Positions 4,941 to 63,890 of a stretch of DNA of 64,000 bases are shown in pieces; position 1 is the stretch's first letter; each line of letters opens with the position of its first letter. The notes beneath the pieces were generated by a model, which saw only the letters and a list, made by a program, of their open reading frames with translations, was not told where the DNA came from and searched no databases. The DNA is from Strigamia acuminata (lineage: Eukaryota; Arthropoda; Chilopoda; Geophilomorpha; Linotaeniidae): contig OX442318.1 in NCBI GenBank assembly GCA_949358305.1, positions 13,374,517-13,438,516 on the forward strand, given 5' to 3'. The position numbers and the translations under genes are program-made.

Positions 4941-5061
4941 ATCATCGCAACTCGTAGTGGACAAACACCTTAGACCGAGGGCCCGTTGAATCGTGACCGG
5001 TCAAGAACACTTCTATTTATGCATATTTGCGCCAAAAAGTTACTTGGCAGAGGACTAAACC

Positions 5062-28634: not shown

Positions 28635-29010
28635 TTACTGTGCATTGGGTTTGATTTTTCCGGTTTGATACTTATCAATGAAATATTCGACGAGACTAAA
28701 AATTGATAAACCAGTCAAAATAGAGATAATCGACCCAATTTGACATAGCAGTTTTACAATGGTAATTTGTTTGAATTCTTCAATTTCTTCTCGGATATTG
28801 CTACTAATAGTGTATTTTACTTCGTTGTAACCATTAACATCTAGGAATTTAATCGTCGGTAGGAATATTGTTTCTTCACAGCGTAGCAAACATAAACACT
28901 CCTTCTGGGGATCAGTGTTGAATTGAGACTCCAGATAAGTTTTGCGAGTCATTTCGGCTGTTTCTTTATTTATGCAGAGAGGTAGCTCGTTCGCATCCAT
29001 AAACGGTAAT
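28635..29010 (-). CDS. DEG/ENaC module 2, last exon (TM2 and C-terminus)
   Basis: The acceptor TTTATTAG precedes 29010. One base completes an Arg codon, and 124 residues follow to the TGA/TAA-type stop at 28635. The order is LPFMDANELPLC, CLCLLRC (the cysteine pair ahead of TM2), then KLLCQIGSIISILTGLSIFS, the equivalent of the conserved LL.D.GG..GL..G.S.LSL..E segment of TM2. The first glycine pair is weaker (QIGS instead of DIGG). A 13-residue polar tail follows. Confidence 0.85.
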
Positions 29011-32000
29011 CTAATAAAGTAGCAGTTATAGCATCCACAATATATACAGTCGGGTCACTTCATCGAATCCCGTTTTATCAAATGGCGGTTTTTATCGATT
29101 AAACGTACCATTTTTTCAAAATTTTCGATGAAATGGTACAGTAAAAAAAATCCAAAAACCAAAAACCTAACCTAACCTGACCTGACCTAATCTAACCTGA
29201 CCTGACCTAACACTACCTAACCTACCCACGTAGCCACGTGAATAACATCCCCGATCATGGCCGAAAATTCGATGAAGCGTACCGAGCGGAATTTAAATTC
29301 GATGAAATAACCCCCGTTTTCCCAAATTTCAAAAAATTATAAGAAATTAGAATTTGATGAAACGGGATTCGATGACTATTTAAAACACATTCGGTACCTG
29401 CAATCGAATGATTGTTTGGCGAGTTTCATGGCATAACACTTTCGTTCACATTTCGAAACTACATCATTTACTTGACAAGGAGACTTCGGAGTATTTATTC
29501 GAATCAACTGAAAAAAAATAGGAGCTAACAGTGCTTTTTTTAAAATTAAATTTGAAAGAATTACCTTTTGACGTGAAAAACCGACTTGAAGTCTACTACG
29601 ACGAATTAAATAAAACAGATGTTTGAGGTCAAAAAATTCATTTGGCGGCAGAAATAAGTTCTGCAATTAAAAACAAATACTATAATCACATGAACAAAAA
29701 CTGAATATTACAAAAATATAACTCACTGGTTGATGGTAATAGCACTCAGGAATAAATGTCTTATGTGTGTTTGGTTCATTTCTCCTATAATATAACGTGT
29801 TTTGATTCGGATTATGTGGGAGGTCAACTGCAGACATGAAAACACAAAAATAAATATGAATGTATACACTTGTCGTTTATTTGTTTGTACCTGCTCTAAA
29901 TTCGGTGCAGATTCCAAATACTGTTGACAACTCTGATATATTTGCAAATTCCTTGACACCTTTGCTGATGTACTGTAAAAATTATTGTTTGTAAATAATA
30001 GGCGGTCATCAGATTGTATTTTGGTATTTCCGGAAATTGTTGAAAAAAAGTTTTGAAATTCGTGACAAAATTTTCAGAAATATTTGACAAAATTTTCAGA
30101 AATATTTGACAAAATTTTCAGAAATATTTGACAAAATTTTCAGAAATATTTGACAAAATTTTCAGAAATATTTGACAAAATTTTCAGAAATATTTGACAA
30201 AATTTTCAGAAATATTTGACAAAATTTTCAGAAATATTTGACAAAATTTTCAGAAATATTTGACAAAATTTTCAGAAATATTTGACAAAATTTTCAGAAA
30301 TATTTGACAAAATTTTCAGAAATATTTGACAAAATTTTCAGAAATATTTGACAAAATTTTCAGAAATATTTGACAAAATTTTCAGAAATATTTGACAAAA
30401 TTTTCAGAAATATTTGACAAAATTTTCAGAAATATTTGACAAAATTTTCAGAAATATTTGACAAAATTTTCAGAAATATTTGACAAAATTTTCAGAAATA
30501 TTTGACAAAATTTTCAGAAATATTTGACAAAATTTTCAGAAATATTTGACAAAATTTTCAGAAATATTTGACAAAATTTTCAGAAATATTTGACAAAATT
30601 TTCAGAAATATTTGACAAAATTCTCATAGGTAATATACCGAGCACGACGTGTAATTGTCGGGATAATTAGGTCAGCACGAATCTTCTTGCCTGATAAGAT
30701 CACGAGTGCCCGTTAGGGCACGAGTGATCTTATCTGACAAGAAGATGAGTGCTGACCTAATCCCGACAATTACTCAAGCGCGAGGTATATTTGATACGAG
30801 AATTTGCCGATAGAAAATAATGTAGATAGTGAAAATGAGATAGCAAAAATGAGATAGCAAAAATGAGATAGCAAAAATGAGATAGCAAAAATGAGAAAGC
30901 GAAAATGAGATAGCAAAAATGAGATAGCGAAAATGAGATAGCGAAAATGAGATAGCGAAAATGAGATAGCGAAAATGAGATAGCGAAAATGAGATTGAAA
31001 AAATGAGATAGCGAAAATGAGATAGCGAAAATGAGATAGCGAAAATGAGATAGCGAAAATGAGGTAGCAAAAATGAGGTAGCAAAAATGAGATAGCAAAA
31101 ATAAGATAGCGAAAATAAGATAGCATAAATGAGATAGCATAAATGAGATATTAAAGATGAGATATTGAAGATGAGATAGTGAAGATGAGATAGTGAAGAT
31201 GAGATAGTGAAGATGAGATAGTGAAGATGAGATAGTGAAGATGATATAGTGAAGATGAGATAGTGAAGATGAGATAGTGAAGATGAGATAGTGAAGATGA
31301 GATAGTGAAGATGAGATAGTGAAGATGAGATAGTGAAGATGAGATAGTGAAGATGAGAATTTATACCTTGAGATTAGGCCTAACAAAACAACAATCCCAC
31401 GACATTTGACATTTGATTCTTGGTTCGTAAAGACCCCACCAGGGGGCGCAAAGCAAGAGAAACATTGACCGGGAAAAGTGGGAAAACTGTATGACGAGAG
31501 AAAAGTTTTCCCGGTAATAGCCAATGAGACGATAAAAGCGGTTTGTTACGCACTTTGGGATTGGTCGGGAGACCGATTGTTGTTTTGTTAGCCCTAATCT
31601 CATTCGTGTTGGAAATAGGCTGGTGAGTGCAGTGAAATAATGGCAGACAGTTGTATAAAACTTGCACTTGAAAACCATGCAAGTGGCCATTTTTATTCCA
31701 GGCATAATAAGTGAACATAAAATACATACATTGAGGCTAACTGCACTCAATATCTATCAATAGGACAAATCAATGATTAACATCAGTTGATTTATCCTGT
31801 ACAAAGTTAAAACAAAGATAACTAATAACAGAACAAATTATATGAACAAAATGCTCATTTGAGCAGACGACAACTTGCTAAATCATTACACAAAGGGGAA
31901 ACGGTTGTGGCAACGTAACACGCATTAATAAAAGTCAATATTAACCGATCCTCAACTCCGGGACATGATGTAACAATAAACAAGTTGCTTAACAGTCGCA

Positions 32001-35000: not shown

Positions 35001-38000
35001 ACCCTGTTTGAATTAATCACCTTTAGACCCTGTCTACAATTGTTCGTGCCCTGCACTTCACTATCCCAATGCCCATTCATTTCATTCGCACGCATCTTAC
35101 AGGTCGCTAAGATTAAATCAGCTATGCCCTTTATCACAGTATCTATGTTATCTGTTAGTGCGCTCTTATGTACTAAATGTGTTAGTAACAATACAATTTT
35201 GTCCGAATCTAAATCGGAATTCAATTCCAAATATCCTTTCTCTTTTCCTAGAACACTAATTTCCTTTTCCAATTGTTCATCAAGTGCGTTATGCACTGTT
35301 TGTCCGTTAAAGACATTTTGTGCATGAGTTTCCATCTTCAGTTGCGCTTTGCGTGTGTCGACCATTGTTTGTTTGTTGCAGGCATTCCTATTGTCCGTTG
35401 AAGACTTTCTTGCTGCACAAAACACTGTTGGCGCAAAATTTGCACCACACGACCACACCAAACTCACTAATAAATTTAGTGACGGCACAAAACACATTTT
35501 CACGAATTAAATGCAGCACTTTCACAAAATGCACTTTTCACTTTGAAAAATACTCAAAAACACTAATTTTTCCTTTTCCTCCAAAAATAAGGCGAAAATA
35601 CACTCTGCCCTGGGACTAATCTCACTAAGTGAGATGACAAACTCCACACAGTATTTCCCAAGTTCCGACCGGTGCACCTGGGCCCGCGGGACACTTGGTG
35701 GCCAGAAATAGCCTGTGTGGAAATAGGATTCTGCTACTCGACTGAGTAAAGGGCAGAAAACAAACAAAAGGACCCCAAAACAAAACCTTAAATAACTATA
35801 CAAAGTTTCACGACAACCCCGAAAATAAACAATAATATGTTGGCACGTTGTCTTCTTGTTTGCGGGACTTTTGCGTCGCAAAATCCCACATAGACGTCGC
35901 TGAAACGTCGATCCTAACGCTGGAATCCGTTGCAATTCACTTGTACACCTGGTACAAGACTTAACCGGTCCAACGATGCACAGATACCCTGTACGGGCCA
36001 ATCCGTGATCGGCGAATCTCGATTCGCACGTCGCGTGCGAAGAATCGCTCCAAAAATCGAAATGTTCGCCGCAAAAATTCCAAAAACCTCTTGAAACACT
36101 AGCCGCTGTTCCGTAGAACGTCTTCACGACGTTATCCAACGATGGAGATGCTCCAAATACTCGTTGGCGACGATTCTCGTCCTTTTTCACCAGCTTGGCA
36201 TGAGCGGCGCCATTTTGGATTCGGCTGCACCGCACATCAGGCTGAAAAATACACAAAAACGATAATTTCGATTTTCCTACTGTGTCTTGGCAATCCACGC
36301 TTATTCCAGGCGTTGAATCCTTGTTGATTCCAGTTGAATCCGTTACATTTCGACGATCTTATCGTCGTGGCGATGCCGACGTGTCTTCGCTCGTTTCTCG
36401 GGTCCCGGACACGAAAATCTCCACTATCCACCGAAATACGTTCTCCGGACGTCTTCAAAATCGGTGGGCACGTATTTAAAACGTGCGCTGTGCTCCGACA
36501 CGTTTCCAAAACGATTCCAAATCGCCGCACCCGTAATCGACGTGTGCGCAGACGATAAATCGCCAATTATCGTCGGATATTGGCGAAAAACGAAGCACAA
36601 ACACCACTATAGGTGTTGAAGAAACATTTAATACCTTTAAAGTACTTGAAAGTACTTGCAAAACTTCCGAAAACACTTTCCACAGCTGCTAATACACTCG
36701 AACTGTGTGCGCCGCCATCTTAGTATGACGCGCCATCGTTGATTTGAAACGACGAAAAATGGTGTTATTTCCACCAAACAAATTCTCAAAACACTTAGAA
36801 TTGTTCCTACTGTCTATAGTAACCATCCACCGACGATTCCACGTTGTTTTCCCACGAAAAACGTCGAATTCCACTCGTTCGCAACTCGTCGACTTCTCTG
36901 CGCCACAAAGCACGCGAATCTCGAATCGCCGTGCCGCGAAAACGTCCTCGAATGCCGCGTCTCGTTCCGACGATCTCCGGTCACCCGTAATCGACGTTCT
37001 AGGCCAGAAAAACGTCGCGAATCCGTTTTTCAACGTTGTAGCAACGTTAAACACTCACCAAACCATCCTCTGCTACCATTGTTGGAAATAGGCTGGTGAG
37101 TGCAGTGAAATAATGGCAGACAGTTGTATAAAACTTGCACTTGAAAACCATGCAAGTGGCCATTTTTATTCCAGGCATAATAAGTGAACATAAAATACAT
37201 ACATTGAGGCTAACTGCACTCAATATCTATCAATAGGACAAATCAATGATTAACATCAGTTGATTTATCCTGTACAAAGTTAAAACAAAGATAACTAATA
37301 ACAGAACAAATTATATGAACAAAATGCTCATTTGAGCAGACGACAACTTGCTAAATCATTACACAAAGGGGAAACGGTTGTGGCAACGTAACACGCATTA
37401 ATAAAAGTCAATATTAACCGATCCTCAACTCCGGGACATGATGTAACAATAAACAAGTTGCTTAACAGTCGCACTAATACGGAAACGTGCGATGTGAACA
37501 ATACAAACACCATACGGTTGATCAAATCTCTACAATTCGTAGTTATTTATAGCTTAAGCTAGTGGTAAATTCTCAGAAATATTTGACAAAATTTTCAGAA
37601 ATATTTGACAAAATTTTCATAAAGCACAAAATTCATGGGAAAAATGCACTTGGGTAGAATTTTCATTTGCTTACATCCTGCCCGTTGACTGTTATGGAAT
37701 GTCCTTTAAAATTTTTCGCGGCGTTCCATAATTTGAGTGTGTCGTTTGCGAATTCAGAGAATGGATGGAGTAAATCTAAGAGTTGGTAATTTTGACAAGT
37801 ATCGTTCAGTCTTGTAGCTAAATTTAGCTTTGCGTCGTGAATCCTATCATTGTCTCCACAATCGATAATGACTGGAAATTGAATGATGTCGTCTCTAACC
37901 AGAGTAACAGTCTTGACGATTGGAAAATCAAAATACGAACTGATCGAGTTGTAAACATTGAACCCCGAGATGACAATCAGAAATATGAATAGGCAATTTT

Positions 38001-38749
38001 TCAATTTATTTGTGCGAAAGGTTGGATTTGGTAATTTCTTCGTTCTTTCAAGAATTGTTTGAATTTTGTTTTTCAACTTAGAATTCAGTTTCCTTCTTGC
38101 GTGCAACTTGATGAAAGGAATTTTACAACTGTATACACACAATTCTACCAGTGTCAGACAAGACATTCCGAAATACAGTCCGATGTTTCCACCAATGTCA
38201 CACAGCAGTGATATGAGATCGTAAGAGAAACGCTGATGCAATGTTCGAACATATTTATTAACGACGTAAACTTCTATACCCGTGTGAGGACTTGGGATGT
38301 GATAATACGCTATGCTTTGTTGTGTCACGTCACATAAATCGAGACATTTGCAGTATTTGAGTATATCTCTAATTGAGCGGATAAACATGGTCCAATTGCG
38401 GTATTCATTTCTTAAATCACTGTCACTGCATTTTGGTAGATGCCTTGCTTCATGAAATGGAAATCTGCAAATAAGTTTAGTTTTATTGAATTCAGTTCTT
38501 CATAAGTTGATAATTGATGTAATTGTTTGCTATTTACATAACAGGCACATTCATATACAAACTTAACATGTAAATTTTTACATTTAGACTAGTTTAAAAC
38601 ATATAAACCAGTTTAAATTATTATAAATGGAAAAGGTGATTTTCAATAATAGTCTTATACCTGCATTTGATCATTTTAAGAAGACAAGTACGCAAACAGT
38701 CTTGTAAATTGTTATTGCAAGGATTTCTTTTAGTATTGATGAAGTGATA
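28635..38749 (-). CDS. Tandem (concatenated) DEG/ENaC ion-channel protein, 7 visible exons
   Basis: Seven minus-strand exons join in matching phase: 38749-38661, 38464-37675, 29972-29891, 29827-29727, 29660-29565, 29507-29398, 29010-28635. They encode the end of one DEG/ENaC subunit (cysteine-rich extracellular part and TM2), a cytoplasmic linker, then a second complete subunit from TM1 to TM2 and the stop. About 570 residues are covered. DEG/ENaC proteins form trimeric amiloride-sensitive Na+ channels; each subunit normally has one TM1-ectodomain-TM2 unit. Both modules carry the same last-exon boundary: a phase-2 exon ending in a Cys codon, then an exon opening RFPF.. or RLPF... That supports origin by duplication within one gene. 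Exons further upstream are uncertain. Introns hold many repeats, including a 5.9-kb LTR element. Confidence 0.82.
29047..29376. mobile_element. Pogo/Tigger-like MITE in a DEG/ENaC intron, with CCTAA-rich core
   Basis: The left part TTCATCGAATCCCGTTTTAT (29059 onward) has an inverted partner at 29350-29376. The left tip CAGTCGGG follows TA, as in pogo-type elements; the right tip is shortened. The core (29160-29228) is a run of CCTAACCTGACC-type units. It lies in the intron between the last two exons. Confidence 0.55.
29162..29228. repeat. Degenerate CCTAA/CCTGA tandem tract
   Basis: About a dozen pentamer units CCTAA, CCTGA and ACCTA. On the complementary strand it reads as TTAGG with variants, the arthropod telomere unit, but the tract is short and mixed and sits inside a MITE. 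Confidence 0.7.
29398..29507 (-). CDS. DEG/ENaC module 2, cysteine-rich exon
   Basis: The acceptor TTTTTTTCAG precedes 29507 and the donor GATTGCAG/GTACCG ends it. It encodes 36 residues plus two bases: RINTPKSPC then C..C spacing typical of the thumb/palm cysteines, ending FDC(R). The homologous exon of module 1 is 38661-38749, with the same phases. Confidence 0.85.
29565..29660 (-). CDS. DEG/ENaC module 2 ectodomain exon
   Basis: The acceptor TTTAATTGCAG precedes 29660 and the donor AAG/GTAATT follows. It gives 32 residues, phase 0 to 0, beginning NLFLPPNEFF. It falls at the position where DEG/ENaC proteins have their H.P.E.P region. Only splice signals, phase and position support it; the sequence is divergent. 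Confidence 0.7.
29727..29827 (-). CDS. DEG/ENaC module 2 ectodomain exon
   Basis: The acceptor TGTCTGCAG precedes 29827 and the donor CCA/GTGAGT follows. Two bases complete the split Val codon and 33 codons follow, ending ECYYHQP. Phase fits both neighbours. Confidence 0.72.
29891..29972 (-). CDS. DEG/ENaC module 2 ectodomain exon (FGICTEF)
   Basis: The acceptor TTTTTACAG precedes 29972 and the donor GAGCAG/GTACAA follows. It gives 27 residues plus one base, containing FGICTEF, the counterpart of the G.C+TFN motif of DEG/ENaC ectodomains. It starts in phase 0, matching the end of the fused exon at 37675. Confidence 0.78.
29973..30062. other. Intron 3' end before the FGICTEF exon
   Basis: Short unique intron sequence between the 22-bp array and the exon; nothing else seen. 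Confidence 0.4.
30063..30621. repeat. 22-bp satellite array in a DEG/ENaC intron
   Basis: About 25 head-to-tail copies of a unit that reads ACAAAATTTTCAG then AAATATTTG, essentially without variation. Two more copies of the same unit lie at 37573-37617 on the far side of the block holding the LTR element, so one array was probably split by insertions. Confidence 0.95.
30632..30789. repeat. Long imperfect palindrome (about 70-bp arms)
   Basis: The left arm GTAATTGTCGGGATAATTAGG..AGGTCAGCAC..CTTCTTG and the right arm CAAGAAG..GTGCTGACCT..CCCGACAATTAC pair over about 70 bp with few mismatches, and AATATACC recurs inverted at the outer edge. The tip is GGGCAC/GTGCCC. It may be a small hairpin transposon. 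Confidence 0.8.
30822..31358. repeat. 14-bp tandem repeat array with three sub-variants
   Basis: About 38 copies of GAGATAGCAAAAAT, grading into GAGATAGCGAAAAT and then GAGATAGTGAAGAT. On the minus strand no frame contains a stop within the repeat, so three overlapping open frames of 98 to 255 codons arise with SHLHYLIFTISSSL-like periodicity. These are artefacts. Confidence 0.93.
31370..31601. mobile_element. 232-bp MITE with 27-bp terminal inverted repeats
   Basis: The left tip GAGATTAGGCCTAACAAAAC and the inverted right tip match over about 27 bp with one mismatch. The interior is non-coding. It ends five bases ahead of the LTR element. Confidence 0.75.
31607..32061 (-). repeat. 3' LTR of the 31.6-37.5 kb element
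   Basis: 455 bp, apparently identical to 37080-37534. The plus strand starts TGTTGGAAATAGG and ends ATCTCTACA. Confidence 0.93.
32062..32076 (-). other. Polypurine tract of the 31.6-37.5 kb element
   Basis: The minus strand reads CAGAGGGGGATT immediately before the 3' LTR, the expected plus-strand priming site. Confidence 0.75.
32450..35503 (-). CDS. 1017-residue protein with catalytically degenerate copia integrase-like domain
   Basis: One uninterrupted frame. Residues 1-370 are unrecognised, rich in Asn, Lys and Arg, with repeated NRVRN-type motifs. Residues about 370-640 follow the copia pre-integrase and integrase order. LWHTRLGYL replaces WH.RLGH. HLSVW stands at the first catalytic Asp position (HLDLMG in copia), YLGPGIDF at the second (RSDNGGEF), and SISEKANA at the third, where Glu remains. 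A typical integrase end follows (RNRAPKTN, HLRCVGSRV, IGYSRFGRKYRVWDP). The CX2C zinc ligands are absent. Residues 640-1017 are acidic and repetitive (IEGE, EGEH motifs), probably disordered, ending with basic KRRKKRCKK and a short folded-looking tail. There is no protease, RT or RNase H. A structural or DNA-binding role is inference. The start may be the later MVDTRK. Confidence 0.8.
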   Translation of the reverse strand: MKMCFVPSLNLLVSLVWSCGANFAPTVFCAARKSSTDNRNACNKQTMVDTRKAQLKMETHAQNVFNGQTVHNALDEQLEKEISVLGKEKGYLELNSDLDSDKIVLLLTHLVHKSALTDNIDTVIKGIADLILATCKMRANEMNGHWDSEVQGTNNCRQGLKVINSNRVSKITQNCSGISNANMKNKENDQFEVGNLKYSNRVRNKKNKKTEGDRKLNTSIRIDGINIQGSCRQNQQRVFVKTEEKSPPSWKQNRKLNNLSKRCLNDKELDCATTIKGGDPLNGHRSAKIEFLNRVRNREREGDPNRIGPLKKISGKSKRGLSNQKSSMTTGIKQNGPLNSGTKNQKKNSRKGNVRKQVNCMDFTVKDRVLPFNLWHTRLGYLDKDSVLNMNGSRNVYGVQLVDTDPIEPAKVKISSTRKNNNKKILEVVHLSVWRAPHTTGEKYIIITDNCTEYVWLRPLKRNSILVEFQNWLSEIKCLTGTVNRVYLGPGIDFSTDELAKWVEVMKNYGITINSVDSDDPMANSISEKANADIINGVESLIVENKFPSYLWLELANTMVYLRNRAPKTNLDWKSPHNVLYDQGVSVRHLRCVGSRVKVTHINDGKRCSWMGALIGYSRFGRKYRVWDPLRDRIFQTSNVRIHEWSYWHEGEVKPSLEFSNVDQTSDSAGVEIPSRVEVPISSHLEVPSTLDLLKLENPPLSLSREIDINKCEGIENEGEHLLPQVHSKVGQNFSNEEIDSSLEIPPSPTTDLVDSNRSGTINTEGEHLERIECDLLKTHVDSKVDAFPNDDMKDYQSRVDKVALSTRTEVDIDEYKPIIEEGEHFGSVEQKPMELNQEGKFNDKEIGLLMEIPSELTHEESETIANERQKLEQFTLEFESKSDERFRQIDPMKVCEISSTSLEDDISPTPIETLIGVNEYKSIGIEGECEKTKRRKKRCKKTKSNTLMKTNDVGVRLKQNLDMTEKNLVNEEEDRDRCYTHNQKFDSLLSSLGKRTGQVTIHDLDFVWDENYLYVK
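35504..37066 (-). other. Leader region of the LTR element
   Basis: About 1.5 kb between the primer site and the long frame, richer in CpG than its surroundings. Minus-strand frames at 36298-35522 (258 codons), 36566-36237 and 37054-36689 resemble no gag or other protein. The sequences around 36237-36290 and 35525-35590 are partial repeats of each other. It may contain packaging and dimerisation signals by analogy with other LTR elements; none is identified. Confidence 0.4.
37067..37078 (-). other. Primer-binding site, initiator tRNA-Met
   Basis: The minus strand reads TGGTAGCAGAGG one base after the 5' LTR, complementary to the 3' end of metazoan initiator tRNA-Met. Confidence 0.88.
37080..37534 (-). 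repeat. 5' LTR of the 31.6-37.5 kb element
   Basis: 455 bp, apparently identical to 31607-32061; followed by the target duplication ATTCG. Confidence 0.93.
37573..37617. repeat. Two stray copies of the 22-bp intron satellite
   Basis: Same unit as the array at 30063-30621, 7 kb away across the inserted block. Confidence 0.9.
37675..38464 (-). CDS. DEG/ENaC fusion exon: TM2 of module 1, linker, TM1 of module 2
   Basis: The acceptor TTATTTGCAG precedes 38464 and the donor GAT/GTAAGC ends the exon; 263 codons without a stop. In order: FPFHEARHLPKCSDSD, KYCKCLDLC (pre-TM2 cysteines), TM2 with LLCDIGGNIGLYFGMSCLTL (about 38130-38210), a basic linker of about 45 residues (ARRKLNSKLKNKIQ..), TM1 of the next module (NCLFIFLIVISGFNVYNSIS, about 37945-38004), then IIQFPVIIDC, the counterpart of FPAVTICN after TM1. 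The linker would be cytoplasmic, joining the C-terminus of one subunit to the N-terminus of the next. No methionine lies between TM2 and TM1, so separate initiation of module 2 within this exon is unlikely. Confidence 0.9.
38661..38749 (-). CDS. DEG/ENaC module 1, cysteine-rich exon
   Basis: The acceptor TCCTGTTTCAG precedes 38749 and the donor AAATGCAG/GTATAA follows. It gives 29 residues plus two bases: YHFINTKRNPC then DCLRTCLLKMIKC(R). Phase and motif match the module 2 exon 29398-29507. Confidence 0.85.
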
Positions 38750-39925: not shown

Positions 39926-40074
39926 TTAACCCTCAGATGGTCAATCTCCAAAGACGACGCTTTGGTGCCCACAATATACCTATTTGGATACAAAATAATT
40001 AAATAAAAAAGGCCTGTAGCTGAAGCGCTGTTAGGGTAGTGTGAAAAATTGTCGCACTTGGCGCTACTGTTGTT

Positions 40075-42375
40075 GAGCCAAGAAAATTAATTTTAAGCCA
40101 AGAAAATCAATTTTAAGCCAAGAAAATCAATTTTAAGCCAAGAAAATCAATTTTAAGCCAAGAAAATCAATTTTAAGCCAAGAAAATCAATTTTAAGCCA
40201 AGAAAATCAATTTTAAGCCAAGAAAATCAATTTTAAGCCAAGAAAATCAATTTTAAGCCAAGAAAATCAATTTTAAGCCAAGAAAATCAATTTTAAGCCA
40301 AGAAAATCAATTTTAAGCCAAGAAAATCAATTTTAAGCCAAGAAAATCAATTTTAAGCCAAGAAAATCAATTTTAAGCCAAGAAAATCAATTTTAAGCCA
40401 AGAAAATCAATTTTAAGCCAAGAAAATCAATTTTAAGCCAAGAAAATCAATTTTAAGCCAAGAAAATCAATTTTAAGCCAAGAAAATCAATTTTAAGCCA
40501 AGAAAATCAATTTTAAGCCAAGAAAATCAATTTTAAGCCAAGAAAATCAATTTTAAGCCAAGAAAATCAATTTTAAGCCAAGAAAATCAATTTTAAGCCA
40601 AGAAAATCAATTTTAAGCCAAGAAAATCAATTTTAAGCCAAGAAAATCAATTTTAAGCCAAGAAAATCAATTTTAAGCCAAGAAAATCAATTTTAAGCCA
40701 AGAAAATCAATTTTAAGCCAAGAAAATCAATTTTAAGCCAAGAAAATCAATTTTAAGCCAAGAAAATCAATTTTAAGCCAAGAAAATCAATTTTAAGCCA
40801 AGAAAATCAATTTTAAGCCAAGAAAATCAATTTTAAGCCAAGAAAATCAATTTTAAGCCAAGAAAATCAATTTTAAGCCAAGAAAATCAATTTTAAGCCA
40901 AGAAAATCAATTTTAAGCCAAGAAAATCAATTTTAAGCCAAGAAAATCAATTTTAAGCCAAGAAAATCAATTTTAAGCCAAGAAAATCAATTTTAAGCCA
41001 AGAAAATCAATTTTAAGCCAAGAAAATCAATTTTAAGCCAAGAAAATCAATTTTAAGCCAAGAAAATCAATTTTAAGCCAAGAAAATCAATTTTAAGCCA
41101 AGAAAATCAATTTTAAGCCAAGAAAATCAATTTTAAGCCAAGAAAATCAATTTTAAGCCAAGAAAATCAATTTTAAGCCAAGAAAATCAATTTTAAGCCA
41201 AGAAAATCAATTTTAAGCCAAGAAAATCAATTTTAAGCCAAGAAAATCAATTTTAAGCCAAGAAAATCAATTTTAAGCCAAGAAAATCAATTTTAAGCCA
41301 AGAAAATCAATTTTAAGCCAAGAAAATCAATTTTAAGCCAAGAAAATCAATTTTAAGCCAAGAAAATCAATTTTAAGCCAAGAAAATCAATTTTAAGCCA
41401 AGAAAATCAATTTTAAGCCAAGAAAATCAATTTTAAGCCAAGAAAATCAATTTTAAGCCAAGAAAATCAATTTTAAGCCAAGAAAATCAATTTTAAGCCA
41501 AGAAAATCAATTTTAAGCCAAGAAAATCAATTTTAAGCCAAGAAAATCAATTTTAAGCCAAGAAAATCAATTTTAAGCCAAGAAAATCAATTTTAAGCCA
41601 AGAAAATCAATTTTAAGCCAAGAAAATCAATTTTAAGCCAAGAAAATCAATTTTAAGCCAAGAAAATCAATTTTAAGCCAAGAAAATCAATTTTAAGCCA
41701 AGAAAATCAATTTTAAGCCAAGAAAATCAATTTTAAGCCAAGAAAATCAATTTTAAGCCAAGAAAATCAATTTTAAGCCAAGAAAATCAATTTTAAGCCA
41801 AGAAAATCAATTTTAAGCCAAGAAAATCAATTTTAAGCCAAGAAAATCAATTTTAAGCCAAGAAAATCAATTTTAAGCCAAGAAAATCAATTTTAAGCCA
41901 AGAAAATCAATTTTAAGCCAAGAAAATCAATTTTAAGCCAAGAAAATCAATTTTAAGCCAAGAAAATCAATTTTAAGCCAAGAAAATCAATTTTAAGCCA
42001 AGAAAATCAATTTTAAGCCAAGAAAATCAATTTTAAGCCAAGAAAATCAATTTTAAGCCAAGAAAATCAATTTTAAGCCAAGAAAATCAATTTTAAGCCA
42101 AGAAAATCAATTTTAAGCCAAGAAAATCAATTTTAAGCCAAGAAAATCAATTTTAAGCCAAGAAAATCAATTTTAAGCCAAGAAAATCAATTTTAAGCCA
42201 AGAAAATCAATTTTAAGCCAAGAAAATCAATTTTAAGCCAAGAAAATCAATTTTAAGCCAAGAAAATCAATTTTAAGCCAAGAAAATCAATTTTAAGCCA
42301 AGAAAATCAATTTTAAGCCAAGAAAATCAATTTTAAGCCAAGAAAATCAATTTTAAGCCAAGAAAATCAATTTTA
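40075..42375. repeat. 20-bp satellite, block 1 (about 115 copies)
   Basis: Unit AGCCAAGAAAATCAATTTTA. The first copy has one C-to-T change; the others are identical. Interrupted at 42376 by copia A copy 1. Confidence 0.97.
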
Positions 42376-42612
42376 TGTTAGATTGACAGGCGCCAATATT
42401 GCTACAGACATTAAAGGATTAGGAACAGGACCTCGTGGACAAAGGGAGAGAAGAAGCGCAGGGTCGTGAACTGTCAGCGACCCCAACTAAACAACCAATG
42501 AGAGAATTTCGTTTTGACCCCACAAACTGTATTTAACCCCCCTGTTCAGAAATAAAACTCACTTGTCAATTTTCAACCTTTCAACACGTGTGTTCTTTTG
42601 AGATGTACAACA
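42376..42612 (+). repeat. 5' LTR, copia A copy 1
   Basis: 237 bp, TGTTAG to TACAACA, with TGTATTTAA as a possible TATA box and AATAAA as a polyadenylation signal near the end. Confidence 0.95.
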
Positions 42613-42626: not shown

Positions 42627-42786
42627 CCAATGGTTTAAGACACACAAAAAAGTATACAATTACAAGTCACGAGAGAAGCGGCTGAATTTTTTCAAACGAG
42701 GGAGCGATAAGACGTAAGTCGCTGAAAAATCAACCAAAAACGTGAAGTCAAAAAAAAAAAAAAAAAAAAAAAAAATACACAACAAG

Positions 42787-45700
42787 ATGACCACCACAAA
42801 ACTCCATGTGGTTTCGAACGTGGAACTCCTGAACGACTCAAACTACACCCTGTGGTCAGAGAGAATTGAAACGATTCTGAGAGGACGAAAGCTGTGGCGA
42901 GCGGCCATCGCAGGAGCGGAACCCCCACACGGTGTGGCCGACGCCGAGGACTTCGAGGCCAAAGAGAAAATATGGGAGACGTGGGACGACAAAAATGCCG
43001 AAGCGATCGAGATAATGATTGGCACATTGACGGGCGACCAGGTGTTGAAGTACCGCGCTTCCCGAAACGCAAAAATTCTTTGGGAGAAGATCAAGGAAAA
43101 TATGCAGACGGACAACACGCAGCTTCAATTAGAATGCAACATGCAATTAACGCATTGCAAGATGGACAAGACGGAGACCATCGACCACTATTTGAACCGA
43201 ATCGAAGCACTCCAGACGGAAAGCGCCCAACTCGGTAAGGACATTACTGACCTGGAAGTGAGATTTTATGCCCTTCACGGACTGAGAGACGAATTCCACC
43301 CCACCGCATTGGCAATCAAAGCAAACAAGACGCTTACAAACAAGGAGGCACGCGCGATGCTAAAACAAACCGAGACGAGGGGGCAGAAAGCCAACGAGAC
43401 ACGCGCACCAGATGCAGCTTACGAGACCAAGGTGAAAAGATTCGAGAAGGGCACGGGCGTGCGCAAGTGCTACAACTGCGACATGCCGGGGCACACGGCG
43501 GGAGAGTGCCGTAATCCCACGCTTTGCTACAACTGCCGGGGAACTGGACACCGAGCGAGCGAGTGCAGACAGCCAAAGAGGGAGAATAAAAACGGCGGAC
43601 GCAACGCAAAGAAGCCACACTCGAAGGGGCCACCAAGAACACTGCGTGCACGCGAAATCGGACCCGAGAGGCCACAGAGAATGCTGAGAGCGTTCGAAGT
43701 CGAAGATAAGGAACCACAGGAACCTATGGAGAGCATCGGGACACCTGAAGATGACGTAAGTGAAAAATTTGATGAAATATTAGAAGAAACATTAGAAGAA
43801 AATTTAGAGGAAAATTTAGAAGAAAAATTTGAAGAGAAAATAGTAGAGAAAATAGAAGAAAAATTAGTAGGAAAAATAGAAGAAAATTTAGAGGAAAATG
43901 TAGAAGAAAAATTTGAAGAGAAAATAGTAGAGAAAATAGACGGAAAATTAGTGGGAAAAATAGAAGAAAAAGGTTTCATTGCGACATGCGAGCGGGCGGG
44001 GCGTTGCGAAGAAAATAATGAGCAATGGATACTGGATTCGGGCGCCACATCCCACATGGCGAAGTCAAGGGGTATATTCGCGACGTATACGCCGGAGAGC
44101 CGTGCAATTCAAGTAGCGGACGAAGGCACGACGATTAGAACGAGCGGGATCGGGGATATCTGCGTGAAAACGACGACGAGCCAAGACGTGCTGCGACTCG
44201 AGCGGGTGTTGCACGTGCCAAGACTTGATTCAAACTTACTGTCGGTGCCCAAGATCGTTGACAAGAAGATGAAAGTCCTATTTGAAGAGAAAAAGGCAAC
44301 AATACTGTCAACAGAAGGGGAGAAAATCCTAACCGCACTACGAGAGGGAGACAGTTTCGTCATAAATTTAAAAATCGAGAAAAACGGAAACGCGCGACAA
44401 ACGAAAGAAATAAACACGACATGGCACCAACGACTTGGCCACCTGGCGCCCGACACGATGCGAACGATGATGAACGACCAACTGGTACGTGGATTGACAT
44501 TAAATCGAAACGAGAAGGCAAAATGTGACGCGTGCATTAGAAGCAAATTAACTCGCAAGCCACACAAGCCCGTGAACACACGACAATCAAGCGCTGTCAT
44601 GGATTTGTGGCACGTGGACCTCATCGGGCCCCTCAAACCCGAGTCATTAGGAAAAGCAAGATTCATTCTCACCGTGGTGGACGACTACAGCAGGAAAACA
44701 TTGATTAGAATTTTAAAAACAAAGGATGAAACGTCAGAAGAACTGAAAAATCTAATCACGAGATGCGAGCGGCAAACTGGGAGGCGACTCAGAAAAATTC
44801 GAAGCGACAACGGAGGGGAGTTCATCGTCGGGACCCTGAGCGCGTGGTTCAAGGAACGCGGAATTGACCACCAGCTGACCACACCTTTCTCACCTGCCAG
44901 CAACGGAGTCGCGGAGCGCCACAACCGGACAATTATCGAGATGACAAGGACGATGTTGTGCGACGCGCAGCTGCCACTCAACTTTTGGGCCGAGTGTGCC
45001 ACGACGGCGGCACACATACGAAACTCGTGCACATCCAGGGCACACGGAAAGACGCCATCGGAAATCTGGGACAAGCGGAAACCAACCGTGAAGTATTTGA
45101 AGCGATACGGATGTGTCGCGTACACACTCATACGAGATGCAAACCGCACGAAGTTGGAACCGAAGGCGCAGAAAGGAATATTCGTGGGCTACTCACAAAA
45201 TCGGAAAGCATACCGAATCTACAACCCCAACACGAGGAAAATAAATGAAGAAAGAAACGTGAGATTCCTGGAACACGAGTTGGGAGCGACGCTGCTACAC
45301 GGAGAAGCCCAACCCGAAACGACACACTGCAACGTACTATTTGAGTTTCAAGAAACTGATACAGAGGCTGAGAATGCACCACGAGACGAAAATGAAATCA
45401 CACGACCCGAACAAGATGGAAACGAGAACGAGCCCACACAAAACGAGAGCGAGCCGACACAAGACGAGAGGGAGTCGACACCAGACGAAAACGAACCGAC
45501 TCGAGACAAGACCGAACCGACACAAAGCGGAAATGCAGCCAATACACAAGCGAATAAAATCGGACGACCAAAGGGCACCACCAACGCTGCAAATACAGAA
45601 AAATTACGCGAACAAAGGGCCGAATACGAGCAAACACTCGTGCAACAAGGCGCGCGCAGAAGCAGCCGAAAAAGAAAACATAGAGCATATAGATCGGAAG

Positions 45701-47241
45701 TTATTGAGCCCACGACGTACGACGAGGCCATGAAGTCAATGAATTCCGAGGAGTGGAAGAAAGCCACGGATGAAGAAATCGCATCTATGAAGCACCACCG
45801 GGTCTGGAGAATTACGAAACTCCCCGCAGGAGGAAAAACTGTAAAATGCAAATGGGTATTTAAAATAAAATCCAATCCGAACACTGGGGCTCAACGATTC
45901 AAGGCGAGACTAGTCGCCGCCGGTTATACGCAACGATGGGGCCAAGATTACGACACAACCTTCGCGCCCGTGATCCGAATCGAAACGATGCGTATGCTAA
46001 TTAATGACGCAATAAAGCGGGGCGGGACACTAAATCAATACGATGTAAAAGCAGCTTACCTACACGGCGAACTCGAGGAAACCATATTCATGGAACAGCC
46101 AACCGGATACACAGAGGGAGATGGGAAGCAGGTATGCCAACTTCTGAAGAGTATATACGGACTTAAACAATCAGGCCGCTGCTGGTACGAGAAGCTCACG
46201 GAAGTCTTGAAGGGAGTCAAATTTGAACAGTCACCAGACGACCCGTGCCTGTTTATTGTGCGCAGAGGAGAGGAATATATGCTGATGGGGGTCTACGTAG
46301 ATGACGCCCTCGTATCCGCATCCAGCGCCAAATTTGAAAAATTAATAATTGGAAAAATTCGCGAAGAAATTGAGCTGTTAAGTATGGGACCACTGTCATC
46401 AATTTTGGGGATCCAAGCGACATGGGACGGAGGAGAAATCCAGTTGCACCAGACCAAATATATTGAGGACATATTACTGCAATACGGAATGGAGGATTGC
46501 AACCCCAAAAATACACCCATGGACCCCAATCAAAAATTGGACGAACACGAAGAAAGCCCAGAAGTCGATCCAAAGTCATACCAAGAACTAATTGGAAAAA
46601 TTATGTACTTGGCAACGAACACCCGTCCCGACTTGAGCTTCGCGATGAGCACATTGTCGCAGTACAATTGCAAGCCGAAGCAAATGCATTATTGCGCGTT
46701 GAAGCGCATCCTGAAGTATTTAAGAAGAACAATCGATTACAGACTGACGTATCGAAAGGAGGCGAGAAATTTGCATGCCTACACAGACGCCAGCTGGGAC
46801 CGGACAGAAGATGCGAAATCGTTTTCAGGATTCATCATAATAGACGGGACAGCAGTCATAAATTGGAGGTGCAAGAAGCAGAGCACTGTAGCAGCATCGA
46901 GCACCGAGAGCGAGATGCATGCACTTTCAGAGGGCGTGAGGGACTTGGCGTGGACACAGAATCTAAACAACTTCATCACACCTCAACCACAAGAGAAATT
47001 GGCAACAGTGTTCTGCGACAGCCTGAACGCGACGCAACTGTTGCAGAGAGGGCCGCAAAAGGCAAGATCGAAATATCACAACCGGCGAATTCATCAGATC
47101 AAAGATGAAATTGAAGGCGGACGAATTAATGTAAAACACATTCCTGGAGAAAACATGCTTGCGGATTTCCTGACTAAACCGCTAGCCGGACCACCATTGG
47201 AGAGAAACATGGTCGGACTGGGAATAAAGAAGAACGAATGA
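42787..47241 (+). CDS. Copia A gag-pol polyprotein, copy 1 (1484 residues)
   Basis: A single intact frame from ATG at 42787. Gag has the copia N-terminal fold (NYTLWSERIETIL) and two CCHC zinc knuckles (residues about 228-241 and 247-260). A Glu/Lys-rich repeat follows (about 323-396), then protease (WILDSGATSH, catalytic Asp 417) and pre-integrase (WHQRLGHL..CDACIRSK). Integrase has D611, D674 and E710 (D-X62-D-X35-E). RT has YVDD at 1170-1173 and RNase H has TDASWD (Asp 1334); the chain ends MLADFLTKPLAG. All catalytic residues are present, so it could be functional. The frame extends upstream through the poly-A run without an ATG, hence this start. Confidence 0.97.
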   Translation: MTTTKLHVVSNVELLNDSNYTLWSERIETILRGRKLWRAAIAGAEPPHGVADAEDFEAKEKIWETWDDKNAEAIEIMIGTLTGDQVLKYRASRNAKILWEKIKENMQTDNTQLQLECNMQLTHCKMDKTETIDHYLNRIEALQTESAQLGKDITDLEVRFYALHGLRDEFHPTALAIKANKTLTNKEARAMLKQTETRGQKANETRAPDAAYETKVKRFEKGTGVRKCYNCDMPGHTAGECRNPTLCYNCRGTGHRASECRQPKRENKNGGRNAKKPHSKGPPRTLRAREIGPERPQRMLRAFEVEDKEPQEPMESIGTPEDDVSEKFDEILEETLEENLEENLEEKFEEKIVEKIEEKLVGKIEENLEENVEEKFEEKIVEKIDGKLVGKIEEKGFIATCERAGRCEENNEQWILDSGATSHMAKSRGIFATYTPESRAIQVADEGTTIRTSGIGDICVKTTTSQDVLRLERVLHVPRLDSNLLSVPKIVDKKMKVLFEEKKATILSTEGEKILTALREGDSFVINLKIEKNGNARQTKEINTTWHQRLGHLAPDTMRTMMNDQLVRGLTLNRNEKAKCDACIRSKLTRKPHKPVNTRQSSAVMDLWHVDLIGPLKPESLGKARFILTVVDDYSRKTLIRILKTKDETSEELKNLITRCERQTGRRLRKIRSDNGGEFIVGTLSAWFKERGIDHQLTTPFSPASNGVAERHNRTIIEMTRTMLCDAQLPLNFWAECATTAAHIRNSCTSRAHGKTPSEIWDKRKPTVKYLKRYGCVAYTLIRDANRTKLEPKAQKGIFVGYSQNRKAYRIYNPNTRKINEERNVRFLEHELGATLLHGEAQPETTHCNVLFEFQETDTEAENAPRDENEITRPEQDGNENEPTQNESEPTQDERESTPDENEPTRDKTEPTQSGNAANTQANKIGRPKGTTNAANTEKLREQRAEYEQTLVQQGARRSSRKRKHRAYRSEVIEPTTYDEAMKSMNSEEWKKATDEEIASMKHHRVWRITKLPAGGKTVKCKWVFKIKSNPNTGAQRFKARLVAAGYTQRWGQDYDTTFAPVIRIETMRMLINDAIKRGGTLNQYDVKAAYLHGELEETIFMEQPTGYTEGDGKQVCQLLKSIYGLKQSGRCWYEKLTEVLKGVKFEQSPDDPCLFIVRRGEEYMLMGVYVDDALVSASSAKFEKLIIGKIREEIELLSMGPLSSILGIQATWDGGEIQLHQTKYIEDILLQYGMEDCNPKNTPMDPNQKLDEHEESPEVDPKSYQELIGKIMYLATNTRPDLSFAMSTLSQYNCKPKQMHYCALKRILKYLRRTIDYRLTYRKEARNLHAYTDASWDRTEDAKSFSGFIIIDGTAVINWRCKKQSTVAASSTESEMHALSEGVRDLAWTQNLNNFITPQPQEKLATVFCDSLNATQLLQRGPQKARSKYHNRRIHQIKDEIEGGRINVKHIPGENMLADFLTKPLAGPPLERNMVGLGIKKNE

Positions 47242-47282: not shown

Positions 47283-47519
47283 TGTTAGATTGACAGGCGC
47301 CAATATTGCTACAGACATTAAAGGATTAGGAACAGGACCTCGTGGACAAAGGGAGAGAAGAAGCGCAGGGTCGTGAACTGTCAGCGACCCCAACTAAACA
47401 ACCAATGAGAGAATTTCGTTTTGACCCCACAAACTGTATTTAACCCCCCTGTTCAGAAATAAAACTCACTTGTCAATTTTCAACCTTTCAACACGTGTGT
47501 TCTTTTGAGATGTACAACA
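47283..47519 (+). repeat. 3' LTR, copia A copy 1
   Basis: 237 bp, identical to the 5' LTR by eye. Confidence 0.95.
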
Positions 47520-49013
47520 GAAAATCAATTTTAAGCCAAGAAAATCAATTTTAAGCCAAGAAAATCAATTTTAAGCCAAGAAAATCAATTTTAAGCCAAG
47601 AAAATCAATTTTAAGCCAAGAAAATCAATTTTAAGCCAAGAAAATCAATTTTAAGCCAAGAAAATCAATTTTAAGCCAAGAAAATCAATTTTAAGCCAAG
47701 AAAATCAATTTTAAGCCAAGAAAATCAATTTTAAGCCAAGAAAATCAATTTTAAGCCAAGAAAATCAATTTTAAGCCAAGAAAATCAATTTTAAGCCAAG
47801 AAAATCAATTTTAAGCCAAGAAAATCAATTTTAAGCCAAGAAAATCAATTTTAAGCCAAGAAAATCAATTTTAAGCCAAGAAAATCAATTTTAAGCCAAG
47901 AAAATCAATTTTAAGCCAAGAAAATCAATTTTAAGCCAAGAAAATCAATTTTAAGCCAAGAAAATCAATTTTAAGCCAAGAAAATCAATTTTAAGCCAAG
48001 AAAATCAATTTTAAGCCAAGAAAATCAATTTTAAGCCAAGAAAATCAATTTTAAGCCAAGAAAATCAATTTTAAGCCAAGAAAATCAATTTTAAGCCAAG
48101 AAAATCAATTTTAAGCCAAGAAAATCAATTTTAAGCCAAGAAAATCAATTTTAAGCCAAGAAAATCAATTTTAAGCCAAGAAAATCAATTTTAAGCCAAG
48201 AAAATCAATTTTAAGCCAAGAAAATCAATTTTAAGCCAAGAAAATCAATTTTAAGCCAAGAAAATCAATTTTAAGCCAAGAAAATCAATTTTAAGCCAAG
48301 AAAATCAATTTTAAGCCAAGAAAATCAATTTTAAGCCAAGAAAATCAATTTTAAGCCAAGAAAATCAATTTTAAGCCAAGAAAATCAATTTTAAGCCAAG
48401 AAAATCAATTTTAAGCCAAGAAAATCAATTTTAAGCCAAGAAAATCAATTTTAAGCCAAGAAAATCAATTTTAAGCCAAGAAAATCAATTTTAAGCCAAG
48501 AAAATCAATTTTAAGCCAAGAAAATCAATTTTAAGCCAAGAAAATCAATTTTAAGCCAAGAAAATCAATTTTAAGCCAAGAAAATCAATTTTAAGCCAAG
48601 AAAATCAATTTTAAGCCAAGAAAATCAATTTTAAGCCAAGAAAATCAATTTTAAGCCAAGAAAATCAATTTTAAGCCAAGAAAATCAATTTTAAGCCAAG
48701 AAAATCAATTTTAAGCCAAGAAAATCAATTTTAAGCCAAGAAAATCAATTTTAAGCCAAGAAAATCAATTTTAAGCCAAGAAAATCAATTTTAAGCCAAG
48801 AAAATCAATTTTAAGCCAAGAAAATCAATTTTAAGCCAAGAAAATCAATTTTAAGCCAAGAAAATCAATTTTAAGCCAAGAAAATCAATTTTAAGCCAAG
48901 AAAATCAATTTTAAGCCAAGAAAATCAATTTTAAGCCAAGAAAATCAATTTTAAGCCAAGAAAATCAATTTTAAGCCAAGAAAATCAATTTTAAGCCAAG
49001 AAAATCAATTTTA
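47520..49013. repeat. 20-bp satellite, block 2 (about 75 copies)
   Basis: Same unit as block 1, without visible variants. Confidence 0.97.
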
Positions 49014-49238
49014 TGTGGTGATTTTTTATGTAATAGTGTATGTTTATTTTGTGATTAATTTGTAACAATTAACGCCAGAGGGTATCGGTTTTATGTAGAT
49101 ACTCTCGACGTCACCTGTATCGTATATCTCGCACTAAGCGACCTTGTCAAAGTTCAGACAAGTACGTCGCCGCAAATAAAACGGCTATTATCATTTCGTT
49201 TAAGCAATTGTCATCTTTTTCAACCACACGCACTGACA
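49014..49238 (+). repeat. 5' LTR, copia B
   Basis: 225 bp, TGTGGTG to CACTGACA, with CAAATAAAACGG near the 3' end. Confidence 0.95.
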
Positions 49239-55276: not shown

Positions 55277-55435
55277 CCAATGGTTTAAGACACACAAAAA
55301 AGTATACAATTACAAGTCACGAGAGAAGCGGCTGAATTTTTTCAAACGAGGGAGCGATAAGACGTAAGTCGCTGAAAAATCAACCAAAAACGTGAAGTCA
55401 AAAAAAAAAAAAAAAAAAAAAAAATACACAACAAG

Positions 55436-59931: not shown

Positions 59932-60168
59932 TGTTAGATTGACAGGCGCCAATATTGCTACAGACATTAAAGGATTAGGAACAGGACCTCGTGGACAAAG
60001 GGAGAGAAGAAGCGCAGGGTCGTGAACTGTCAGCGACCCCAACTAAACAACCAATGAGAGAATTTCGTTTTGACCCCACAAACTGTATTTAACCCCCCTG
60101 TTCAGAAATAAAACTCACTTGTCAATTTTCAACCTTTCAACACGTGTGTTCTTTTGAGATGTACAACA
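59932..60168 (+). repeat. 3' LTR, copia A copy 2
   Basis: 237 bp, identical to the 5' LTR by eye; preceded by the same GGAGGGATT purine tract. Confidence 0.95.
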
Positions 60169-62024: not shown

Positions 62025-62251
62025 CTCGTTTTTGTTAATCAACATCCTCTTGTGGCAGACAGTTGTGTTTTTAGAACTACTATTCTATTGTTCATTTGTA
62101 TCTATGATTCAATGGTTGTGGACAGGTCAATAACCAATGGGAGTTTGTCACAAGTGTTATGAAACAGAGTATAGTGCTCTTACTGTTTGAAAATGAGTAG
62201 TAACAATATGCTTAGTCTTGTACTTGTAGTACCGGTACACCTTTTTTTTAC
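62025..62251. other. Probable DEG/ENaC intron sequence
   Basis: Between the transposon border and the candidate second exon. No exon-like stretch was found on the minus strand. Confidence 0.35.
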
Positions 62252-62342
62252 CCTTAATTTCAGAGAAAGATTTCTCTGCTGCCATGTAGAAATAGTTCTC
62301 GAAATGAACATGATATTTAATTGGTGATGGATCAATTAATCC
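62252..62342 (-). CDS. Candidate DEG/ENaC module 1 second exon
   Basis: The acceptor ACTTTTTCAG precedes 62342 and the donor AAGG/GTAAAA follows. It gives 30 residues plus one base, open in only one frame, phase 0 to 1, the same phases as the module 2 exon 29891-29972. It starts GLIDPSPIKYHVHFENYF. The FGIC motif of the module 2 exon is missing, so homology rests on position, phase and splice signals. Confidence 0.5.
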
Positions 62343-63113: not shown

Positions 63114-63404
63114 AGAACAACATAAATCTTACGTAATAATAGTTACAAAGTTTTAGAAATTTTAGGTTGATCACCATCTTGTAATTATTGTCTCCATATG
63201 GAAGTTGCAATGCTAAGCAAAGGTAATGTTAGAAATAAAAATTTGATATAATTTTTGTCAGTTTGTTGACTCACAACTTGAAACTTGAGCGGTAGGCATC
63301 ATAGTGGAATCGTAATTTTCAACTGTAAGATTAATACGTGATTTTCCCTACAAAAGGTGTGTTTATTTATTATACGTTAAACACGACAAAGAGACGAGGT
63401 TTAC

Positions 63405-63890
63405 CTTTGAGAAGTAAGCTTCAGTTATATAGCTATGAATATCCATATATTTGAAAGTATCAAGAAGGTCAAACTGCGGTTTCTCTTTAAGGTTCCATAC
63501 AGTAGTACATGGAATATGTTTCAATTTTTTCATTTTTTTCTTTTTTCTAACGTAATCGTTATATTCTGACGTTGTTAGTGGAGTCACATAAACATAAGGA
63601 TAAGGACCGTGTGTTGTTTCAATTAAGTGTGCGTCAACTGTTGTTGGTTCATTCAGATAATAGAATATTCGATCTGTAGATTGGTAAACGCATACCGACA
63701 AATTTATAATGAGTAATGAGAGAAATAGCATGACCATAATTTTTTTCTTTTTTGAAATATTTGTTAAAGTTTTAACAAATTGTGGTATCTCGGGCTGATT
63801 TGCCGTAACGGTTCCCACAAGGTGTTGGAGTTTTCTTTTTCGGAGTTGTTGAATGCGGCCAACTGGCCGATACGATTCGTGCTCATCCAT
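63405..63890 (-). CDS. DEG/ENaC first exon (N-terminus and TM1)
   Basis: ATG at 63890; 162 codons end exactly at the donor AAG/GTAAAC, phase 0. The basic N-terminus (IQQLRKRKLQ) and KKKKI precede TM1 (VMLFLSLLIINLSVCVYQ), followed by HGPYPYVYVTPLT, equivalent to the FPAVT region after TM1, and a Lys-rich stretch. Module 2 has the same arrangement and the same phase-0 exon end. A duplicate at 17672-18174 is broken. Whether this exon is spliced to the exons below 38749, across the 22-kb transposon, is an inference from order and strand. Confidence 0.8.

Follow-up and report, generated by a model that had tools for sequence, protein, structure and literature searches.

Channels of the DEG/ENaC family (ENaC, ASICs, degenerins and pickpockets) are known to be trimers in which every subunit has one module. 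A locus of the centipede Strigamia acuminata raises the question of whether a single gene might encode two such modules in one chain, and how a chain of this kind would assemble. The window, i.e. the whole stretch of 64,000 nucleotides that was analysed, corresponds to C6:13374517-13438516 of the 237.5 Mb genome that we searched. According to the original prediction, one exon in it joins the second membrane helix (TM2) of one DEG/ENaC module to the first (TM1) of the next.

The window gene and its fused exon

The gene extends from 63890 to 28635 on the minus strand, and its 11 exons, separated by introns that all have GT-AG boundaries, add up to 813 codons and a single terminal stop. Its product contains two DEG/ENaC (Pfam ASC) modules, A followed by B: module A is encoded by exons 1-5 together with the beginning of exon 6, and module B by the remainder of exon 6 and exons 7-11. 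The original prediction had the gene begin at 38749; the actual start lies at 63890, with exons 1-4 at 63890-62184. The elements of the gene are as follows:

63405..63890, minus strand: exon 1, with the start codon, cytosolic N terminus, TM1 of module A and first part of ectodomain 1
about 63740-63678, minus strand: TM1 of module A, within exon 1
63275..63347, minus strand: exon 2, phase 0 in and 1 out
63133..63212, minus strand: exon 3, phase 1 in and 0 out
62184..62342, minus strand: exon 4, phase 0 in and 0 out
38661..38749, minus strand: exon 5, phase 0 in and 2 out, part of ectodomain 1 with cysteines
37675..38464, minus strand: exon 6, the fused exon, phase 2 in and 0 out, with the end of ectodomain 1, TM2 of A, the linker, TM1 of B and the start of ectodomain 2
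38140..38214, minus strand: TM2 of module A, core LLCDIGGNIGLYFGMS, then CLTLVEL
37999..38139, minus strand: linker, 47 residues
37936..37998, minus strand: TM1 of module B, hydropathy peak at residue 462
29891..29972, minus strand: exon 7, phase 0 in and 1 out
29727..29827, minus strand: exon 8, phase 1 in and 0 out
29565..29660, minus strand: exon 9, phase 0 in and 0 out
29398..29507, minus strand: exon 10, phase 0 in and 2 out
28635..29010, minus strand: exon 11, with the end of ectodomain 2, TM2 of B and the stop codon
about 28757-28680, minus strand: TM2 of module B, core LLCQIGSIISILTGLS, within exon 11

Intron 4, of about 23 kb, separates the exons at 63890-62184 from that at 38749-38661 and contains retroelements and satellite sequence. 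Beyond intron 6, of 7.7 kb, lie the remaining exons of module B, 7-11 (29972-28635), in keeping with the earlier claim that a second module is completed downstream with its own TM2 and stop.

Taken alone, module A scores 36.2 bits and module B 34.6 bits against the Pfam ASC profile (PF00858), whose cut-off is 23.6, with the match of module B covering profile positions 27-453 of 455; the full 813-residue chain gives three ASC stretches. A post-TM1 segment of the FPxxTxC type is typical of DEG/ENaC proteins; it reads QFPVIIDC in module B and PYPYVYVTP in module A, where the cysteine is absent. A His-Gly pair before TM1 is likewise common in DEG/ENaC proteins; in the four chains examined it is absent both from module A and from the linker before module B, the DEG/ENaC assignment resting on the Pfam ASC cut-off, of which this pair is not part. 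Each DEG/ENaC subunit is described as having two membrane helices around one large ectodomain (PMC10148893), and this layout of two helices per module is also found in the window chain, whose hydropathy profile shows four peaks, at residues 60, 399, 462 and 787.

The fused exon is 790 nt in length and is bounded by an AG acceptor, TATTTGCAG, and a GT donor, GAT/GTAAGC. Its own frame is free of stops, the other two frames holding 19 and 15, and at the local stop-triplet frequency of 0.051 a run of 263 open codons would arise by chance with a probability of about 1e-6. The Pfam ASC profile hits its TM2 half, and the exon reads TM2, a basic linker and a new TM1 in one uninterrupted frame, which agrees with the 263-codon TM2-to-TM1 exon with good splice sites that had been claimed. 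The linker is indeed basic, with a net charge of +13 and zero methionines; its length, earlier put at about 45 residues, is 47 by the bounds used here. A structure model of the fused exon alone was uninformative (mean pLDDT 33). The exon has the appearance of a gene's terminal exon continuing directly into the initial exon of the following gene.

By the positive-inside rule basic loops are cytosolic, and the termini of DEG/ENaC subunits, before TM1 and after TM2, are cytosolic as well. Because the linker is strongly basic it is expected to lie in the cytosol, and we infer a chain with four membrane passes whose ends and linker are all cytosolic. Given the cytosolic termini of DEG/ENaC subunits, joining two of them head to tail would need no extra helix and would thus be topologically simple.

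Several repeats and one other coding exon were recorded in the window. Arrays of a 20-bp satellite with nearly identical units lie in intron 4, at about 40061-42390, 47519-49014 and 60168-61603, and abut the ends of copia-type elements. Two near-identical, unbroken copia-type gag-pol frames lie at 42718-47241 and 55376-59890 on the plus strand, the former matching Pfam RVT_2, rve and Retrotran_gag_2; the likeness of this pair suggests recent transposition. A 22-bp minisatellite array is found at about 30060-30620 in intron 6, just upstream of exon 7, and an exon of the BTG/Tob family at 5059-5403 on the plus strand (Pfam BTG, E 1e-40). Rfam and tRNA scans of the window gave no matches.

Satellite arrays and near-identical retroelements of the kind found in introns 4 and 6 are error-prone for assemblies, which lends some plausibility to an artefact whereby the assembly or the gene model wrongly joined neighbouring genes. 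Against this, the fused exon is one continuous frame with at least 144 further scored matches in the genome, which exclude the assembly error inside the exon that the original prediction had raised, and the complete structure is present in three paralogs within about 4.3 to 6.0 kb. Accordingly, we regard such an artefact as extremely improbable.

A broken duplicate lies at window positions 18269-17364 and 17361-17140 on the minus strand. It carries the 5' flank and exons 1-3 (86.5% identical), with a stop and indels in exon 1, and its exon 1-3 part is joined directly to a copy of the 3' flank (28459-28237; 80.5%); it resembles a second copy of the entire two-module gene that has lost its central part. 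The identities between exons 1-3 and this copy are 0.908, 0.959 and 0.900, and those of the introns and flank 0.912-0.968, so that the pair does not support selection on exons 1-3, the exons being no more alike than introns and flank. The presence of this broken partial copy 10 kb downstream, along with introns full of retroelements, might be taken to mean that the window copy itself is a decaying gene and that other copies of the family do the work; however, all 11 exons are open, with GT-AG sites and 813 codons, and we think decay of the window copy quite unlikely.

Recurrence of the two-module gene

A genome search with the exon 6 protein recovered at least 145 scored matches, its own copy included (best of 1379 first-look candidates); some near-identical matches on small contigs, which may be allelic or duplicated pieces of the assembly, are included in this and the following counts. 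The matches listed range in identity from 100% down to 44%, all of them cover TM2, linker and TM1, and 142 of the 145 are free of in-frame stops. Exon 1 is found in at least 160 places (at least 150 with its own protein and 10 added by the query with a Strigamia protein described below), and the exon 11 protein in at least 150 scored places. The true numbers of fused exons and exon-1 places are probably higher than those listed.

Within 40 kb, exon 1 is next upstream of 120 of the 145 listed fused exons and exon 11 next downstream of 117, with both expected neighbours in the correct order in 103 cases (98 of 145 using 150 exon-1 places); one or both expected neighbours are missing for 42 fused exons among the matches listed. 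With the 150 exon-1 places, the other upstream neighbours are exon 11 (11 cases) or exon 6 (3), with none within 40 kb in 18, and the other downstream neighbours are exon 1 (9) or exon 6 (3), with none in 16. Among the matches listed, a fused exon directly follows another in three cases, 15-35 kb apart, and the intervening exons may be missing from the matches listed. Loci in which all three exon types are present follow the order exon 1, fused exon, exon 11, which makes two modules and not three or more. A third module upstream of exon 1 was rejected: within the 1.5 kb preceding exon 1 in one locus (L071) the sole match to a chain is at chance level (15 residues, E 0.69), and in the window the interval of 18.3-28.6 kb, from the broken copy to exon 11, gave no third-module match with E up to 10.

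The matches listed also include 20 pairs in which exon 11 follows exon 1 within 60 kb with no fused exon between them, and single-module relatives of the two-module family are possible. One of these pairs, on C6 near 7.69 Mb (L082/L085), turned out to be a two-module paralog: it contains a fused exon whose reading frame shifts between the ectodomain and TM2, and immediately upstream lies a fragment resembling exon 9 from a different copy.

Three compact paralogs could be rebuilt end to end, each with 11 exons, the intron phases of the window gene and one terminal stop, their products of 776, 770 and 773 residues being 59-62% identical to the window chain. The entire gene of one (L081; C6:1919301-1923900) fits in about 4.3 kb; the other two were read from overlapping loci, and all three lie within about 4.3 to 6.0 kb. 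In one paralog (gB) the hydropathy peak of the module A TM2 falls below the threshold of 1.5. All four rebuilt genes code for two modules, and the exon order in the genome agrees with this. Of 30 loci of the fused exon, 29 have an in-phase AG at most 7 nt from where the exon should start. When the best in-phase GT was chosen, 24 of the 30 gave a GTAAG donor, and none was found in L056. Thus the genomically encoded two-module chain of the original prediction recurs in more than 100 places with frame, phases and linker kept, which supports the assignment of the window gene to a putative large, lineage-specific family of more than 100 two-module genes.

The linker was compared in 28 of the 30 loci, after dropping L058, which has an in-frame stop, and L053, which equals L052. 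It is exactly 47 residues long in 22 of these 28 and 40-46 in the other six, with a net charge of +8 to +16; methionine is absent from nine (the window gene and eight more loci) and present in 19. Pooled dN/dS is 0.31 up to TM2, 0.55 in the linker and 0.51 from TM1 onward, values that describe the 37 pairs of at least 70% identity and, as these pairs share lineages, carry no p-value. By these values constraint is weaker on the linker than on the TM2 side (0.55 vs 0.31), and the linker appears to evolve in a coding-type manner. Among the top-scoring Pfam ASC loci in this genome, 29 have a C-terminal match (30 loci less L014, whose match is N-terminal); in 28 of them the stop comes 7-25 codons past the TM2 match, and in the remaining one 74 codons past it; these figures show where TM2 exons usually end and not the number of modules per gene, exon 11 ending likewise. 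DEG/ENaC genes outside the two-module family are also numerous in the genome. Other clusters of ASC exons that end soon after TM2 are located on C4 near 7.36-7.38 Mb, C1 near 28.8-29.1 Mb and C11 near 5.27 Mb, and four TM2-type ASC matches outside the family list have long open frames of 283-390 aa (C8:11122379, C1:27689296, C1:16793615 and C1:7348933).

These data bear on the alternative that each locus makes two single-module proteins. The message might then be bicistronic or have alternative starts, and module B would be translated either from a start codon within it or after splicing of a different first exon into the linker. Internal initiation is conceivable in the 19 of 28 linkers with at least one methionine codon, and in Drosophila a DEG/ENaC gene, llz, is reported to be co-transcribed in an operon-like manner. 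Nevertheless, the junction is stop-free in 142 of the 145 listed matches, the linkers of the window gene and eight of the 28 loci are methionine-free, and conservation of the linker's frame and length (the same in 22 of 28; dN/dS 0.55) would serve no purpose in a bicistronic locus. Further, ASIC concatemers engineered in the laboratory are reported to be made mostly full-length (PMC10329638). We therefore consider two separate proteins highly improbable and a two-module DEG/ENaC chain very likely the product of the window gene, in which case the sequence would point to a single transcript and a single uncut chain.

Origin of the modules and their nearest relatives

The intron phases after exons 1-5 are 0, 1, 0, 0 and 2, and those after exons 6-10 are again 0, 1, 0, 0 and 2 (5 of 5 the same). 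In an alignment of module A with module B, intron pairs 4 and 5 fall in the same column and pairs 2 and 3 one column apart; the first pair is four columns apart, in a weakly aligned stretch. The matching phases on which the original prediction based an internal duplication are therefore upheld, and such an event fits: a tandem duplication with loss of the intervening stop and start would yield exon 6. However, with an identity of only 23% between the modules, exon 6 could equally well stem from the fusion of two adjacent paralogs that had diverged beforehand.

Among solved structures, the best match of module B is the centipede DEG/ENaC channel BRTNaC1 (broad-range thermal receptor 1, from Scolopendra; PDB: 8ymw and 8ymr), aligned from TM1 through TM2 (8ymw; E 3.8e-08). 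It differs from the window chain in having one module, of 431 residues in the deposited chain. The whole chain best matches PDPNaC1, a DEG/ENaC channel of the centipede Scolopendra subspinipes mutilans (PDB: 9jf7; E 4.3e-07), over module B and a weak stretch over the TM2 of A; its module is of similar size, but it is described as a single module of 421 residues forming a homotrimer (PMC12714832). BRTNaC1 and PDPNaC1 lead the structure matches for module B, and ASICs those for the TM2 of A alone. Strigamia maritima T1IJG4, an uncharacterised UniRef entry, is 48% identical to exon 1 over 160 residues, including the run TVDAHLIETTHG; it differs in being a predicted protein of 216 residues that covers the exon 1 region only. 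Used as a query, it found at least 150 scored places in the genome of the window, with 43-57% identity among the matches listed.

Among 5.8 billion sequences, no annotated two-module protein was retrieved either with the full chain (E up to 0.01) or with a three-chain alignment (E up to 10), neither query giving any hit at its threshold; the one hit of a third search was T1IJG4. Searches of this type reach only relatives with 5-residue words in common. Natural linkage of channel modules at the gene level is known from two-pore-domain K+ channels and two-domain TPC channels; there, the pore is four-fold, a multiple of the two modules in each chain, whereas a DEG/ENaC trimer is not. The original prediction did not regard a two-module DEG/ENaC arrangement as established, and we likewise found no natural two-module or concatenated DEG/ENaC protein in the open-access papers searched; as far as could be seen, the predicted chain represents a new architecture within DEG/ENaC. 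The nearest precedent is man-made: engineered ASIC concatemers also link DEG/ENaC modules head to tail on the cytosolic side, but they contain three modules that fill one trimer, in contrast to the two modules of the natural gene (PMC10329638, PMC5449180). The genome paper of S. maritima reports sodium transport among the functions enriched in lineage-specific duplicates, and the terms 'sodium channel', 'amiloride', 'pickpocket' and 'degenerin' are all absent from its main text (PMC4244043).

Pore segments and assembly of the chain

The TM2 of module A is LLCDIGGNIGLYFGMS in all four rebuilt chains and is nearly invariant over 30 loci; searched alone, its first PDB match is the TM2 of ASIC. 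That of module B reads LLCQIGSI(I/F)xILTGLS in all four chains and is similar in 10 exon-11 loci, the window's included, with His replacing Gln in one; searched alone against PDB it gave no match. In each of the four chains, the Gly-x-Ser tract of TM2 reads GMS in module A and GLS in module B. In the outer part of TM2, module A has an ASIC-like Asp and Gly-Gly, and module B a Gln and Gly-Ser, so that each of the four chains combines one module with an ASIC-like TM2 and one Gln/Gly-Ser module. Because ENaC subunits too lack the outer TM2 Asp and Gly-Gly, the outer pore segment of module B may be ENaC-like rather than degenerate. The Asp and Gly of module A align with Asp372 and Gly375, which are given as the gate residues of PDPNaC1 (PMC12714832), module B having Gln and Ser at these positions. 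The Glu that follows Gly-x-Ser, nearer the inner end of TM2, is kept in both modules and is taken to match E18', which is reported to set Na+ selectivity in ASIC1a (PMC5449180). The predicted chain would be expected to have ion (cation) channel activity.

How such a chain might form a channel is constrained by the DEG/ENaC channels of known structure, which are trimers of two-helix subunits (PMC10148893). We tentatively favour, among the assembly models, one in which A and B of the same chain would be neighbours in a single trimeric pore, with the third place going to a module from another chain; alternatively, this place might be occupied by a single-module subunit. The pore would then be lined by two unlike outer segments, the Asp and Gly-Gly of A and the Gln and Gly-Ser of B, and the chain would constrain the stoichiometry of the channel. 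Functional trimers are known from engineered ASIC concatemers of three modules joined through 19-residue linkers, and most such constructs reach the membrane mainly full-length, though some give small monomer or dimer by-products (PMC10329638). As 19 residues suffice in ASICs, the 47-residue linker could plausibly join neighbours in one ring.

A different assembly has arithmetic on its side: three is not a multiple of the two modules in a chain, and three chains contain exactly enough modules for two trimers, so that they might form one A3 pore and one B3 pore tethered by the linkers. The TM2 cores of A and B also stay distinct across the loci read, as such twin trimers would lead one to expect. 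Yet neighbours within an ASIC trimer can be linked by 19 added residues together with their own termini, and by analogy with these engineered proteins an arrangement within the same trimer is at least as easy (PMC10329638); we consider the twin trimers somewhat doubtful.

Within the same-pore model, the third subunit might also come from the gene itself. Because intron phases match between the modules, exons could be skipped without loss of frame to give single-module chimeras, as would result from joining exon 1 to 7, 2 to 8, 3 to 9, 4 to 10 or 5 to 11. The combined picture of a centipede sensory family of well over 145 A-B pair genes in which skipping chimeras supply the third subunit seems to us rather unlikely.

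In terms of function, a sensory receptor family is the most likely identity of the two-module genes, given their copy number, their arrangement in tandem arrays and their nearest known relatives, which are centipede heat and proton receptors; we lean towards this reading with some confidence. A natural two-module family would break the rule of one module per subunit and, fitting a trimer poorly by arithmetic, raises the question of how its chains assemble. It would also offer ready-made tandem constructs already tested by evolution. For centipedes, the finding points to a large, apparently undescribed receptor family, the nearest studied relatives of which sense heat and protons.
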